NCBI GenBank assembly: GCA_029762595.1
Contig: JARVGJ010000003.1
Location: 1-64,000 of the forward strand
Source of the DNA: Methanolobus sp.
GTDB taxonomy: Archaea > Halobacteriota > Methanosarcinia > Methanosarcinales > Methanosarcinaceae
DNA: 64,000 bases
Direction of reading: 5' to 3'
Positions 47,648 through 54,310 of this stretch are shown piece after piece. Each line of letters opens with the position of its first letter. The first letter of the stretch is position 1. The notes below the pieces were generated by a model. The model was given only the letters and a program-made list of their open reading frames with translations. It did no database searches and was not told the DNA's origin. Made by a program: the position numbers and the translations under genes.

Positions 47648-47738
47648 ATTTTTCCTGGAACTTCACACGCGTGAAAACTATATATTGAAGAGTCAAATAA
47701 AGAACAAAGCTTTTTAAATGTGTATTGGAGGAAAATCA

Positions 47739-47945
47739 GTGAGAATAGATACAATAAATATAGAAGGTATGATGTGCGGTCACTGCCAGGCAAACGTGGA
47801 AAAAGCCATAGCTGCAATAAACGGCGTCAGTAAAGTTGAAGTAGACCTCTCTGGAAAAAAAGCCACCATCACCTTTGACCCTGAAACTGCAAATCTTGAT
47901 TCCATCAAAAAAGCAGTAACTGACGCAGGATATAAAATCATCTGA
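47739..47945 (+). CDS. copZ: copper chaperone (HMA domain)
   Basis: The 68-residue protein is a single heavy-metal-associated domain with the binding motif GMMCGHC (Cys13 and Cys16) and the usual beta-alpha-beta pattern ending VTDAGYKII. It should pass Cu(I) to the P-type ATPase encoded 41 bases downstream. The GTG at 47739 is chosen as start because ggagg lies seven bases upstream; a longer frame from 47718 would place that motif inside the coding region. Confidence 0.88.
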
Positions 47946-47986
47946 AAGCAGCAGGATATGGGTTCTTTACTTCATTAGAGGGCAAC

Positions 47987-50767
47987 ATGAAAGCAGATAT
48001 CAAAATATATGGCATGACCTGCATGCATTGCCACAAACGCGTGGAAGATGCCATATTATCCCTTGAAGGAGTGACATCTGTGGAAGTCAGCCTTGAAGAG
48101 GAGAAAGCATCGGTGGAATTCAATGCTGACAGGATAAATATTGTCGATATTAAAAAGGCAGTCACAGATGCCGGATACGAAGTCGGGGAAGAAGTCTGTT
48201 CGGTTCCTGACACAGACGAAAAAGAGGCTGTGTGTCCTGTCCTAATTGATGATGTCGGGATAAGTGATGTAACAATAAATGAAGCGGACCCTGTAAAGAA
48301 TATTGTTTTCAAGATATCAGGGATGCAGTGCTCTGCCTGTGCACAGAACATAGAAACGACACTCAAAAGACAGGATGGTGTAATATCTGCATCCGTTAAC
48401 CTGCCTATGGAAAGGGCAGCTGTGGATTTTAACCCGGCACATATCACACCCGAAGAGATGGAAAAAGCCATCGAAGGAATTGGGTATAATGTTGTAAGGG
48501 ACCGGGTCGTGCTAGATATAGGAGGAATGAAGTGTGCAGCATGCTCCCGGAATGTGGAGAAGGTGCTCAGCAAATTGAAAGGAGTCAGTTCTGCAAATGT
48601 GAACATTACTACAGGAAAGGCAACTGTAGAGTACAATTCATCCCTTGTCACAGTAGATGATATGAAAAAAGTCATCGAAGGGATCGGATACTCAGCGTCG
48701 CTTCCGGTAAGCAGGTCTGAAACACAGGACAGGGAAAGAATTGAAAGGGAGCGTGAGATCAGACAGCAGAGGAACAACCTGCTCATCTCGATCGCAGTAA
48801 TGATCCCTGTTATGCTCGGGCACATGAAAATGATGGTTCCCGCATATTTCGCTTTTGTGCCGGAACTCTTCCTGGACAGGAACATGCTTTTCCTGCTCAC
48901 TACAATTGTGATGGTTTTCCCGGGGAGACAATTCTTCGTCGGAACTTACCGGGGCCTGAAACATGGGGTCACAGATATGAACCTGTTAATTGCCACAGGA
49001 ACCGGGGCTGCCTATGTTATTAGCGTTGCTTCAAGCTACCTTGACCTTGGACCCGGCTACGACCATCTGTACTACGATACTGCGGTCATGCTTATCGCTT
49101 TCATAGTACTTGGAAGATACCTGGAGGCAAAAGCAAAGGGCAGGACATCTGAATCCATCAAAAAGCTCATCGGCCTGCAGGCAAAAACGGCCCGCATAGT
49201 AGTTGACGACCGGGAAAAGGAAGTACCTGTGGAAGAGGTACAGGTAGATGATATAGTCTTTGTGAGACCTGGGGAGAAGGTGCCTGTTGACGGTGTTGTC
49301 ATCGAAGGTGCCTCTGCAATGGACGAGTCAATGATAACCGGTGAGAGCATCCCTGTGGAAAAGAATGTTGGGGACATGGTCATCGGCTCAACCCTTAACA
49401 GGTCGGGTGCACTTAAGTTCAGGGCAACAAATGTTGGAGCTGACACTGCCCTTGCAAGGATAATCGAACTTGTGGAAAATGCACAGACTTCAAAGGCACC
49501 TATACAGCGTATAGCTGATGTTGTTGCAGGTCATTTCATCCTGGCAGTGCATGTTATCGCCCTGACAGCATTCTTCTTCTGGTATTTCATCGGCTACGAG
49601 AGATTTGCTGTTGCACTGAATTCCACAATGGCCAGTCCATTCCTCTTCTCAATGCTCATCTCAATTACGGTTCTTGTGATATCCTGCCCCTGTGCAGTGG
49701 GACTTGCAACACCTGCAGCCATAATGGTAGGTACAGGCAAAGGTGCAGAGAACGGGATACTTATCAAAGGAGGAGAAGCACTTGAGAGGACATTGAAAAT
49801 AGACACTATTGTCTTTGACAAGACAGGGACCCTCACAAAAGGCAAGCCCGAACTTACTGACATCCTGCTTGCCCCGGGCGGAGAGATGGATAGTAATGGA
49901 GTACTTTCTATCGCTGCAAGTGCGGAAAAAGGCTCTGAACATCCCCTTGGTGAGGCCATCGTGAAGGCTGCTGAGGAGAAAGGGCTTGAAATAAGGGATC
50001 CGCAAAACTTCAGGTCCATCGCAGGGCATGGTGTTGAAGCCACCACAGGTGGCAGCAGGATACTGCTTGGAACCCGCAGGCTAATGAAAGACAATGACAT
50101 TGACATCTCAGCACTCTATGCAGACATGGAAAGAATGGAAGCAGAAGGTAAGACTGCAATGATAGTTGCAAAGGAAATGGATGCTATCGGTCTTATTGCC
50201 GTTGCAGATACGCTCAAAGAGAACTCCCCTCAGGCCGTGAAAAAACTGCAGGAGATGGGAATTAAGGTCGTGATGATAACAGGGGACAACCAGAGGACAG
50301 CTGATGCGATTGCAGCGCAGCTTGGTATTGACAGAGTACTGGCAGAAGTACTTCCTGGTGACAAGGCTTCTGAGATCATGAAACTGCAGAAAGAAGGCAG
50401 GATAGTTGCAATGGTGGGAGATGGGATCAATGATGCTCCAGCACTTACACAATCGGATATCGGCATTGCAATGGGAGCAGGTACCGATGTTGCAATGGAG
50501 TCTGCACAGATAGTCCTTATAAAGAATGATCTTCTGGATGTGCTGGCATCCATCAGACTGAGTCGTCTTACAATGAGAAAGATAAAACAGAACCTATTCT
50601 GGGCATTTGCCTACAACAGCCTCGGTATACCACTTGCAGCAGGAATACTCTATCCTTTCATCACAAAGATAGTCATCACCCCCGAGCTGGCGGCGGCTTT
50701 TATGGCTATGAGCTCGGTGTCTGTCACAACGAACTCCCTGCTAATGAAAAGGAGCAGGATAAAATAA
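47987..50767 (+). CDS. copA: copper-translocating P1B-type ATPase with three HMA domains
   Basis: The 926-residue pump has three N-terminal metal-binding domains (TCMHC at Cys12/15, QCSAC at Cys115/118, KCAAC at Cys183/186) and the P1B membrane core. The CPC ion-site motif is at 567-569, the phosphorylation motif DKTGT at Asp611, HPLGEAI in the nucleotide domain and GDGINDAP in the hinge. It exports Cu(I) or Ag(I) with ATP. Three HMA domains is more than the one or two usual in prokaryotes. It is preceded by its chaperone and followed by a small membrane protein in one apparent operon. Confidence 0.95.
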
Positions 50768-50786
50768 TAAAGGAGGAGATGTCCGC

Positions 50787-51029
50787 ATGGAAAGAAAAGC
50801 TTACAATACAGGTAAATATGCACTTATAGCCAGTGTGGCCTCTTCATTTATACTTGTGACCATATTTGCAGGGCTTTCGCTCGTGGTGAACAGCTCCAGA
50901 ACAATACCACTGTACAGTCAGGTGGATATCATTGCAGGTATGATCTTTGTATTCATCCTCAGCATGATAGTTGCGGCTTCGGTCTGGCCCGGGTTAATAG
51001 AAAAGACAATGGAAAATAGACAGAGATAA
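50787..51029 (+). CDS. small two-helix membrane protein downstream of copA
   Basis: The 80-residue protein has two predicted membrane helices (about 12-33 and 48-70) with a short polar loop and a basic C-terminus. A strong ggagg site precedes the ATG, and it starts 20 bases after copA, so co-expression is very likely. It has no metal-binding cysteines or methionine motifs. It may be an accessory of the copper pump, which is inference from position only. Confidence 0.65.
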   Translation: MERKAYNTGKYALIASVASSFILVTIFAGLSLVVNSSRTIPLYSQVDIIAGMIFVFILSMIVAASVWPGLIEKTMENRQR

Positions 51030-51071: not shown

Positions 51072-52052
51072 TTATATAATATCTACGTGCGGATTGATGT
51101 CGCACCCCGTACAGGGCAGGCACATCGTCTTAAAGGTATCAGCACGCAGGCCGTACTCATCCAGTTTTTCACGGAGGAAATTATTCAGCATAAGCAGCCT
51201 TTCTGCGGACGGGCGCTCTATAAATACTTCCCCTTCCCTCAATGGATGCCTGGCGGCTGCCCTGAGGATAGGGACAACCCCCATGGAAACAAGCTCTTCT
51301 ATGCCTTTTTTATCAGATTCTTCTGTTTCCCCCAGACCGATGATGAAATTAGAGCAGACCTTATTCCTGCCAAATACATTTACACCTTCCCTGAGTGCAT
51401 CAAGCAGGAATTCCAGATCCTGGTCCGGGCATAAAATAGCATGCAATTTCCTATCCATGGTCTCGACATTGTATTTTAGCTCGTCAGCACCCGCAGCCCT
51501 GAGCCTGCGTGTGGAATCTCCTGTGGGATAGACGGAAACACCTATTGGGACATTATATAGCTCCCTGAGCCTGCGAATAAGTTCTTCAGCCCGGTCTACC
51601 TCATGTTCTGCTGATATCTCAACACCGGAGGTGATAGATATTGCCTTCATACGGCCGGTATCATGTGCATCTGCTATCATCTTAAGCATCTGTTCCATGC
51701 TCTTGACATTTCCGGAGAGTTTGGGGACAGGACAGAACTTACAGTCAAAGATACACTTCTCACACATTGTGATGAAGGCCTGGTCCGGGCAGTGGATCAG
51801 CTCCTCTTCAATAATGCCTCTTGCAATCTCGATACCATCTTTCCTGATCACAAGCTCAGTACCTTGCATTGTGGCTTCAAGAGAGGATTCTTTTTTAACA
51901 GCAAGACGTACACGATGTCCTCCCGAACTGAAGAAGAAGGCTACGTTCCCGGCCCCAGGTCCTGCTGTGGGAATTGTCAGCCTGCGGATGAGAGAGGGGT
52001 CCATATTGACCGAACCTGCGGAGATAAGTTGAGCTTTTGTTTCTGCGTTCAT
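51072..52052 (-). CDS. radical SAM protein, biotin synthase-related
   Basis: The 326-residue protein has the radical SAM cluster motif CIFDCKFC (Cys100, Cys104, Cys107) inside a TIM-barrel-like core and resembles the archaeal 'biotin synthase-related' group (COG2516). A long N-terminal domain (1-85) precedes the barrel, and the C-terminus has an extra cysteine set, CLPCTGC, that may bind an auxiliary cluster. The reaction is unknown. It converges with the copper operon and appears to be a single-gene unit. Confidence 0.82.
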   Translation of the reverse strand: MNAETKAQLISAGSVNMDPSLIRRLTIPTAGPGAGNVAFFFSSGGHRVRLAVKKESSLEATMQGTELVIRKDGIEIARGIIEEELIHCPDQAFITMCEKCIFDCKFCPVPKLSGNVKSMEQMLKMIADAHDTGRMKAISITSGVEISAEHEVDRAEELIRRLRELYNVPIGVSVYPTGDSTRRLRAAGADELKYNVETMDRKLHAILCPDQDLEFLLDALREGVNVFGRNKVCSNFIIGLGETEESDKKGIEELVSMGVVPILRAAARHPLREGEVFIERPSAERLLMLNNFLREKLDEYGLRADTFKTMCLPCTGCDINPHVDII

Positions 52053-52170: not shown

Positions 52171-52294
52171 TGACCTATGACAGTATCGGCAAAGTGCTCA
52201 GGGTTTTTAATGATTATACGATTCAAATTTCATTATATATCAGAGCATGTATATAGCAATTCCACAAGGACATCCGCGATCCTGGGAGATTAAG

Positions 52295-53455
52295 ATGCCT
52301 ATTGACCCTATATGTAAAAATAAAGTGCATGAAGAGACCCCCTATTATACGGAATATGGTGGGAAACTCTACCGGTTCTGCTCTTATGAATGTAAGAACA
52401 AGTTCGATCTGCTTGAAAAAAGAGTCATCCGCCTTAAAAGGTCCATTGCAGAGCAGGAAAAGATATCTTTTGGGAAACTCAGGAAGGACATAATCAAGCC
52501 CGGAATATGCACTCTCTGCGGAGCTTGCGCCGCATCATGTGAATCTATTGTTATAAAGGATGAGCAACCCAGTCTGATCGGCAAGTGCACAGCCTGCGGT
52601 GTCTGTTATAACCAGTGCCCAAGGACAATTACAACAGAGGAAGGGCTTGTCGGAAGGATACGCAATGCCTATTGTGCAAGAACGGCCATACCTGAGCTGA
52701 AGGGACAGGACGGAGGAGTGGTCACATCCATGCTGGCCTATGCCCTGGAAGAAGGACTCATCGACTGCGCCATTGTAACCACCCGGTCAGATGAGGAGCC
52801 CTGGAAACCTGTTCCTATTGTGGCAAAGACCTATGATGATATCCTTGAAGGAACAGGAAGTATCTACAGCCATAGTATGACAATGGAGGCCTTGATGAGC
52901 GCTATCAAACAGGGTATGCGAAGCATTGCCTTTGTTGGCCCAAGCTGTAATATCGATGCCGTGACCAAGATGCAGAAAAGCCCCTACGGATTCCTGCACC
53001 TGTTCATGAGGGCGAATATCCTGAAGATGGGGCTATTCTGCATGGACACCTTCTATTATGAGGGAATAAAGGAATTCGTAAAAAGCAAGGATATGGAACT
53101 TGCTGATGTCGAGTGGATGAAGATACGCAAGGGTAGGTTCGAGTTCCAGACCAGGGATGAACTTAAGGTGTTCCCGCTGAGTGAGCTTGACCAGTACAGG
53201 AGCAGTTCGTGCAAGTACTGCACCGACATGGCCTCTGAGAGTGCAGATCTGTCATTTGGCGGTGTGGGCACCCCCAGGGACTGGACCACTGTGCTTGCAC
53301 GTTCCGGAATTGGATACGAGATATTCAACGAGGCGGTGGATAACGGATACATCGAGTCCCGCCTGCTTGAGGAAAACGAGATGAAGAATGTTCTCAACCT
53401 CGCAAAGATGAAGAAGATACAGATGTATTCACTTAATCGCAGGCAGAATATCTGA
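52295..53455 (+). CDS. YHS domain-ferredoxin-FrhB fusion protein
   Basis: From the ATG at 52295 (gggagat just upstream) the protein starts with a YHS/TRASH metal-binding domain (1-43; Cys7, Cys29, Cys33). A 2x[4Fe-4S] ferredoxin follows (Cys72-75-78-82 and Cys98-101-104-108). The C-terminal part (about 120-386) is of the coenzyme F420 hydrogenase/dehydrogenase beta-subunit type. Such FrhB-like modules bind flavin and exchange electrons with F420 or ferredoxin. Joining a metal-sensing YHS domain to this module is unusual. Its substrate is not evident. Confidence 0.85.
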   Translation: MPIDPICKNKVHEETPYYTEYGGKLYRFCSYECKNKFDLLEKRVIRLKRSIAEQEKISFGKLRKDIIKPGICTLCGACAASCESIVIKDEQPSLIGKCTACGVCYNQCPRTITTEEGLVGRIRNAYCARTAIPELKGQDGGVVTSMLAYALEEGLIDCAIVTTRSDEEPWKPVPIVAKTYDDILEGTGSIYSHSMTMEALMSAIKQGMRSIAFVGPSCNIDAVTKMQKSPYGFLHLFMRANILKMGLFCMDTFYYEGIKEFVKSKDMELADVEWMKIRKGRFEFQTRDELKVFPLSELDQYRSSSCKYCTDMASESADLSFGGVGTPRDWTTVLARSGIGYEIFNEAVDNGYIESRLLEENEMKNVLNLAKMKKIQMYSLNRRQNI

Positions 53456-53470
53456 GGACAAAAAACTCCT

Positions 53471-54310
53471 GTGTTTTTAAACACTTACGCACAATATACA
53501 AGCATGTACTCCAAAGATTATGTCCATGGCTATTCCGAAAGAGAAGCACTCCGCCTCTGCGACCAGGCTAGCACACTGGAAGAGCTCCTTCACAGCGATA
53601 CAAAATACCCTCCGGGCAGCAAGGTACTGGAAGCCGGATGCGGCATCGGTGCCCAGACAGTAATCCTCTCAAAGAACAGCCCCCAGGCACAGATTACATC
53701 CATTGATATATCAGAGGATTCCCTGAACAAAGCTAAAGAACGTGCCGCAAAAGAGGGAGTCGGGAATGTGGAGTTCCGTGTGGAAAGCATATTCGACCTC
53801 CCATTTGAGGATGAGAGTTTCGACCACGTTTTTGTCTGCTTTGTGCTGGAACACCTCAAAGAACCAGTTCAGGCCCTTGCAAACCTGCGCAGAGTGCTAA
53901 GAAAAGGTGGCACAATAACAGTTATCGAAGGCGACCACGGCTCATGCTTCTTCCACCCCGAAACCGAAGCAGGAGTGAAAGCCTGGCACAGCCTTGTGGA
54001 AGTGCAGGCAAGGCTTGGCGGCAATTCGCTCATCGGCAGGCAGGCCTACACGCTCCTGAAAAAAGCAGGCTTCAGTGACGTTGCAGTCTCACCCCGCATG
54101 GTCTACAGCGATGCAAGCCGTCCGCACATGGAGGAAGGTTTTGTGAGAAGGACGATCATACCGATGGTTGAGGGCGTCAGGAAGAGTGCCATTGGGATGG
54201 GAATAATCGATGAGGATACCTTTGACAGGGGAATTAGGGACCTGCACAGGACAGCGGGAGAGGAAGGGGCTTTTTCTTATACCTTTTTTAAGGGATTGGG
54301 AAGGAAATGA
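53471..54310 (+). CDS. SAM-dependent class I methyltransferase
   Basis: The 279-residue protein has the Rossmann methyltransferase core with motif I VLEAGCGIGAQT, an acidic strand 2 end (ITSIDIS) and FDHVFVCFVLEHL for motif post-II. A helical C-terminal region (about 180-279) follows and may select the substrate. The frame opens with GTG at 53471; an ATG at 53504 is an alternative that would remove 11 residues. It follows the YHS-FrhB gene by 15 bases and is probably co-transcribed with it. Confidence 0.87.
   Translation: MFLNTYAQYTSMYSKDYVHGYSEREALRLCDQASTLEELLHSDTKYPPGSKVLEAGCGIGAQTVILSKNSPQAQITSIDISEDSLNKAKERAAKEGVGNVEFRVESIFDLPFEDESFDHVFVCFVLEHLKEPVQALANLRRVLRKGGTITVIEGDHGSCFFHPETEAGVKAWHSLVEVQARLGGNSLIGRQAYTLLKKAGFSDVAVSPRMVYSDASRPHMEEGFVRRTIIPMVEGVRKSAIGMGIIDEDTFDRGIRDLHRTAGEEGAFSYTFFKGLGRK

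Follow-up and report, generated by a model that had tools for sequence, protein, structure and literature searches.

The window analysed here, that is, the whole 64,000-nucleotide stretch of Methanolobus sp. DNA, carries at 52295-53455 (+) a gene that encodes 386 aa plus a stop and that joins a YHS domain to ferredoxin and FrhB modules. The open reading frame itself extends somewhat further upstream (52247-53455, +; 402 aa); because the start of the homologues falls on the ATG at 52295, the shorter coordinates fit the gene, and the Pfam domain residues given below have been renumbered from the 402-aa ORF to the 386-aa protein. From its N-terminus the protein consists of (i) a YHS domain (residues 3-40; 52301-52414, +), which scores 45.7 bits against a Pfam cut-off of 30.3 and contains Cys7, Cys29 and Cys33; (ii) a linker (52415-52501, +), which is partly helical in a low-confidence model; (iii) a ferredoxin domain (52502-52630, +) with Cys72/75/78/82 and Cys98/101/104/108; (iv) an FrhB_FdhB_N domain (residues 126-200; 52670-52894, +; 87.8 Pfam bits, cut-off 22); and (v) an FrhB_FdhB_C domain (residues 209-359; 52919-53371, +; 137.5 Pfam bits, cut-off 23.3), which holds Cys218/249/306/309 and an IRKGR turn (residues 277-281). 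The spacing Cys7-X21-Cys29-X3-Cys33 matches the TRASH/YHS pattern. The two CxxCxxCxxxC motifs between YHS and FrhB_N are both complete, and the Fer4 models score below their cut-offs. Hence the fusion of YHS, ferredoxin and FrhB parts, first described in an earlier note on this DNA, is borne out both by Pfam matches above cut-off (YHS and FrhB_FdhB_N/C) and by two complete, invariant cysteine motifs. Within the window's genome this gene gives the sole YHS match and one of four FrhB_C matches, and a separate FpoF (679.9 bits) is encoded as well; the closest named relative, at 91%, is from Methanolobus psychrotolerans.

This fusion is not a chance one, since 41 of 60 genomes (the window's own included) carry the gene at 62% identity or more. 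Within the order Methanosarcinales it is matched in 112 of 185 genomes (E<=1e-80, broken copies counted), with an intact copy in genome G407, and the 35 of 294 genomes of the phylum that match at 1e-70 all belong to that same order. A search of viral contigs with two peptide patterns gave 19 stretches that fit one or the other, with no relative encoded in any of them. A tree was built from 46 rows, of which 25 were drawn from the 66 distinct family rows and 21 are paralogues; in it the 22 subfamily rows form their own clade with support 97/98, and three Asgard proteins devoid of YHS group beside it (joint group 95/89); the placement of several paralogues is unsure because of long branches. As judged from sequence, the YHS-ferredoxin-FrhB proteins are a distinct, unnamed FrhB subfamily. 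Many FrhB paralogues are described in the accessible parts of PMC9012536, one clade of which may correspond to the YHS-FrhB protein; a literature search over partly accessible sources found no paper on this protein.

The redox core of the protein is strictly conserved: all 12 Fe-S cysteines (eight in the ferredoxin domain and four in the FrhB domain) are invariant among 50 aligned sequences, which comprise the window's own and 49 of 59 named loci. (Loci that are truncated, broken or interrupted by an in-frame stop, namely L053, L069, L075, L080 and L085-L090, were left out of this alignment.) The top solved relative by sequence is 8riu_B, a subunit of an F420-reducing CODH (E 1.1e-52), and Fsr (7np8) and Frh (3zfs/6qgr) are likewise found; Foldseek agrees with these relatives, with a weak predicted model as its query (mean AlphaFold pLDDT 66.5, and below 50 for residues 41-78 and 100-121, so that the ferredoxin region is poorly modelled). 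A point against an F420 role is that the FrhB-fold relatives also include plant HCAR (5dqr), and enzymes of this kind work with ferredoxin in place of F420. In FrhB, the counterparts of Cys218/249/306/309 are Cys104/134/192/195, and that of the IRKGR turn is IGKGK, which, according to the part of PMC3591093 available, is thought to lie close to F420. These features indicate that the YHS-ferredoxin-FrhB protein is very probably an F420-linked oxidoreductase.

Known systems share some features with the protein and differ from it in others. FrhB of the F420-reducing hydrogenase shares the core fold, the four cluster cysteines and the F420-side turn; the protein studied here, however, reaches only 196.6 bits against the NCBIfam frhB cut-off of 331.5 and has additional ferredoxin and YHS domains. 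The best match in both sequence and fold is 8riu_B, the zeta subunit of the CODH of the ethane oxidiser Ca. Ethanoperedens; it joins ferredoxin and FrhB parts and docks to a partner, but the match does not include YHS and amounts to 34% identity in the fold alignment; there is no CODH gene among the named neighbours of the YHS-FrhB gene. The N-terminal half of Fsr (7np8) has the same parts in the same order--two ferredoxin [4Fe-4S] clusters followed by an FAD/[4Fe-4S] F420H2-oxidase domain--and electrons there pass from FAD to cluster 1 and on to clusters 2 and 3, as stated in the accessible text of PMC10229431. Unlike Fsr, the protein has an N-terminal YHS domain, falls in a separate clade and is without the fused C-terminal siroheme domain, its 386 aa including no NIR_SIR among the Pfam matches. 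FpoF, finally, has the same ferredoxin and FrhB layout, which raises the possibility, though an unlikely one, that the gene encodes a soluble ferredoxin:F420 oxidoreductase that, like free FpoF, has no fixed partner. Such an enzyme would suit the scattered gene contexts described below, and a soluble activity of FpoF is cited in the portion of PMC9012536 at hand. On the other hand, it would leave the YHS domain unexplained, the genome already encodes its own FpoF elsewhere, and similarity to that family is low (118.5 bits against an NCBIfam cut-off of 475).

The preferred interpretation, and on balance a probable one, is instead that the gene encodes a free-standing F420H2 oxidase or F420 reductase module, similar to the N-terminal half of Fsr, that acts with a separate partner and in which YHS is an accessory domain. 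Electrons would pass between F420(H2), FAD, the [4Fe-4S] cluster of the FrhB domain, the two ferredoxin [4Fe-4S] clusters and a separate redox partner, a path whose layout would be that of the N-terminal half of Fsr and whose direction could be either of the two. The Methanosarcinales clade probably gained the YHS domain at its base, and the three cysteines of that domain would form a putative metal site that is most likely structural or used for docking, rather than a catalytic end point. F420 is the main hydride carrier in these methanogens and in their methane-oxidising relatives; an F420 module that is retained this widely and has no assigned partner represents a testable gap in the electron flow of these archaea.

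The accessory character of the YHS domain is suggested by its patterns of conservation and loss. The earlier note had staked its reading on the YHS cysteines being kept in homologues, and a general loss of them did not occur: all three cysteine columns are occupied in 59 of the 66 distinct rows, and 54 of these 59 keep the full set of cysteines. Among the exceptions, the third cysteine is replaced by Gly in Methanolobus profundi (L038), the motif is gone from Methanomethylovorans (L058, L059), and L088 and L089, the frames of which are broken or partial, are without the full cysteine set. Gaps at these columns occur in seven rows, namely the three Asgard proteins, L057, L087, L090 and L027. 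In L090 the YHS codons are split over two frames. In L027 (from G030) the whole YHS motif lies in open frame with no ATG, GTG or TTG before it; because no usual start codon precedes the motif, the domain was cut off by the ORF caller, and an unusual start codon is possible.

Among 12 Methanolobus genes, for which synonymous sites are near saturation, the median dN/dS is 0.104 for YHS, 0.063 for the linker, 0.039 for ferredoxin, 0.051 for FrhB and 0.114 for the C-terminal tail, so that the rate for YHS is roughly double that for the ferredoxin and FrhB core. For the decayed L038 compared with L048, pN is 0.21 in YHS and 0.04 in FrhB; the corresponding control values are 0.09 and 0.03 (L033 with L048) and 0.04 and 0.04 (L034 with L048). 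The YHS-less L057 and L058 are nested in the subfamily clade with moderate support (91/84 and 89/86), and the redox core is retained where YHS has been lost or has decayed (L038, L057, L058 and L059). By alignment and tree, the domain has thus been lost or has decayed several times within the subfamily. Cysteine retention, the dN/dS of the domain and the nesting of YHS-less rows together make YHS look ancestral in the subfamily, subject to selection and yet dispensable.

Upstream of the gene lie a copZ-like ORF (47718-47945, +), named from its sequence and place; copA (47987-50767, +), identified by Pfam and NCBIfam profile matches; and a small membrane ORF, the three spanning 47718-51029 (+). 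The copper genes that the earlier note placed about 1.5 kb away are therefore real: copA ends 1,531 bp before the start of the YHS-FrhB gene. Because of this distance, and because an opposite-strand radical SAM gene (51072-52052) intervenes, the YHS-FrhB gene lies outside the copper operon, and these nearby genes are judged not to be part of the system. Among the 41 carriers, CopA is encoded within 10 kb in 26: 24 Methanolobus (the window's included) and, from two other genera, G029 and G030. For the remaining 15, copA is 0.76-0.90 Mb away in three (G028, G033, G036), on another contig in eight drafts (whose assemblies do not give the true distance) and missing from the list of strong hits in four. 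That list left out weaker, partial and split hits (a contig-edge piece in G020, hits in G031, G034 and G041, a split one in G050, and G052) as well as second, weaker ATPases, such as one at 38% that is 1.5 kb from the gene in G058 (and goes with L069). Conversely, copA persists where the YHS-FrhB gene is missing, both in G017 and in G018, whose gene block also keeps a Dsr-like gene, and the Methanohalophilus loci have much of the gene block without copA. In three of 21 Methanoperedens-like loci (L069, L073, L077) a copA-cluster gene lies within 1.4 kb; of these three neighbours, the one in L077 was scanned and proved to be an ATPase with a CPH motif that belongs to the copper subfamily (619.8 bits).

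From this pattern it appears very unlikely that the protein is a metal-gated or metal-reducing F420 oxidoreductase of copper handling, as the earlier note had proposed. The retention of three YHS cysteines in most rows speaks for such a role, as does the linkage just described, and YHS-less paralogues that adjoin nickel-cofactor (lar) genes are consistent with a metal role in general. The domain also scores above the curated cut-off of YHS/TRASH (PF04945), with the expected Cys-X21-Cys-X3-Cys; here, however, it is joined to an F420 module and shows no constant association with a metal operon among carriers. Moreover, linkage is confined to Methanolobus, G029, G030 and three Methanoperedens-like loci, and YHS can be lost while the redox core stays. 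The linkage to metal genes elsewhere that this proposal called for largely fails, as none of the other 15 carriers has the gene near a listed copA. A general copper link was rejected, given that 15 of 41 carriers have copA unlinked or unfound and that copA persists without the gene. What stands of the earlier reading is an F420-family flavin/Fe-S enzyme with a mostly conserved three-cysteine YHS domain under purifying selection; the link to copper handling is not supported, and the closeness of copA in Methanolobus would seem to reflect gene order passed down by descent and not a functional link.

Nor do other neighbours point to a constant operon partner: none was found in the window, in 59 named loci or in 25 further genome stretches, and no partner is fixed because no neighbour is common to all carriers. 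The radical SAM gene (51072-52052, -), the family of which is unnamed (Radical_SAM 52.1 bits; below all NCBIfam cut-offs listed), is a divergent neighbour in the window, in several other Methanolobus, in Methanohalophilus and in G030, which could suggest that the YHS-FrhB protein donates electrons to it. This is highly improbable: the radical SAM gene occurs in 55 of 60 genomes and YHS-FrhB in 41, the two are unlinked in G028 and G036, and radical SAM clusters are poorly served by F420H2 as a donor. Downstream in the window is a class I methyltransferase gene (53504-54310, +; the listed ORF runs from a GTG at 53471, with an ATG at 53504), which neighbours the YHS-FrhB gene in some Methanolobus; in Methanosarcina and Methanohalophilus it is GatCAB genes that are found downstream. 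In four of five family f2 loci (L103-L106, of which L103 alone was scanned) a peptidase U32-like gene divergently adjoins the gene.

For the free-standing module favoured here, one candidate partner is a Dsr-like siroheme protein, which scores 125.6 bits for NIR_SIR, has two further Fe-S motifs, gives sulfite_red_C as its best NCBIfam match (169.7 bits, cut-off 324.1) and is assigned to group III by features set out in the available part of PMC3448663. Of the 24 Methanolobus that carry YHS-FrhB, 14 have its gene as the divergent neighbour, 124-277 bp away; a relative is found in G037, at a distance of 5.4 kb, and in L043, about 6.3 kb from the second YHS-FrhB copy, and both of these sites adjoin genes read as a PAPS reductase and a CysP-type permease (a sulfate-assimilation cluster), with a TusA-like gene also at the G037 site. 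In several Methanococcoides genomes the two genes are some 22-26 kb apart. The YHS-FrhB protein might thus be the dedicated F420H2 donor of the group III Dsr-like protein, the two forming a split F420-dependent sulfite or nitrite reductase, as its Fsr-like architecture would also allow. The accessible portions of PMC6286981 and PMC3448663 respectively describe the free-standing group III Dsr-like group as biochemically uncharacterised and mark the electron donors of Dsr-like proteins as unknown, so that, if YHS-FrhB drives these proteins, the question of the reductant of an uncharacterised family would be answered.

A dedicated donor is nonetheless rather improbable, because the two genes often occur apart. 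At a threshold of 1e-60, seven of the Methanolobus carriers, among them the window's genome, show no Dsr-like protein; in G009 and G011, which belong to these seven, a distant Dsr-like match inside a frame of 645-654 aa is all that was found, and the single siroheme-family gene of the window's genome encodes a 222-aa NirB-like protein. Across 185 genomes, 79 have both genes, 33 YHS-FrhB only, 22 Dsr-like only and 51 neither, counts that ignore kinship, for which reason the Fisher value for co-occurrence is not taken as proof. G018, noted above, has the Dsr-like gene without YHS-FrhB. Within family f5, 32 genomes have either gene, Dsr-like being present in 31 and YHS-FrhB in 21. The group III Dsr-like protein is the best-supported candidate acceptor in about half of Methanolobus, and not in the window's genome. 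A broader and quite doubtful proposal is that of a modular F420H2 donor whose YHS domain picks the partner: with YHS, electrons would go to the Dsr-like protein (sulfite or nitrite) and to other acceptors, and YHS-less paralogues would serve lar nickel-pincer assembly or a DUF2193/aquaporin pair, which would make the module the missing donor of free-standing group III Dsr-like proteins.

Some observations on individual copies may be added. At L057 6947-11032, at L058 1972-4452 and in L059, the YHS-less copy is preceded on its own strand by the nickel-pincer cofactor genes larB-larC, and in L057 a larE-like gene stands between these and the copy; in Pfam terms these neighbours match Ni_insertion (LarC), AIRC (LarB) and, for the LarE-like protein, NAD_synthase only. 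(The labels copZ, PAPS reductase, TusA, CysP and LarE are readings of the sequence and not family matches.) Genes for DUF2193 and an aquaporin-like MIP channel adjoin YHS-less copies in L145 (5434-8949) and L146 (4689-8227) and lie near a YHS-bearing copy in L079 (6272-8560), three genomes of the Methanolobus group in all.

In Methanococcoides (genus g3), six loci (L030, L053, L093, L094, L096, L100) share a conserved in-frame TAG in place of a Tyr codon at codon 339-341 or so; it is found in six of ten carrier genomes (G028, G096, G110, G152, G297, G395) and is absent from G254, G394, G396 and G398. Past the TAG the frame continues for 45 more codons to a TGA, with 95 synonymous versus 24 nonsynonymous pairwise codon differences among five loci, two of which are alike, and PylS was looked for in eight genomes, which do not include G395, and occurs in each. 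The TAG probably encodes pyrrolysine; the pyrrolysine literature, in the parts accessible, does not mention the YHS-FrhB gene. Broken copies (L114, L115, L152, L090) also occur: the gene is divided into two ORFs in G208, reduced to a remnant in G327 and interrupted by an in-frame TAA in G058, and in L090 the YHS domain is split.
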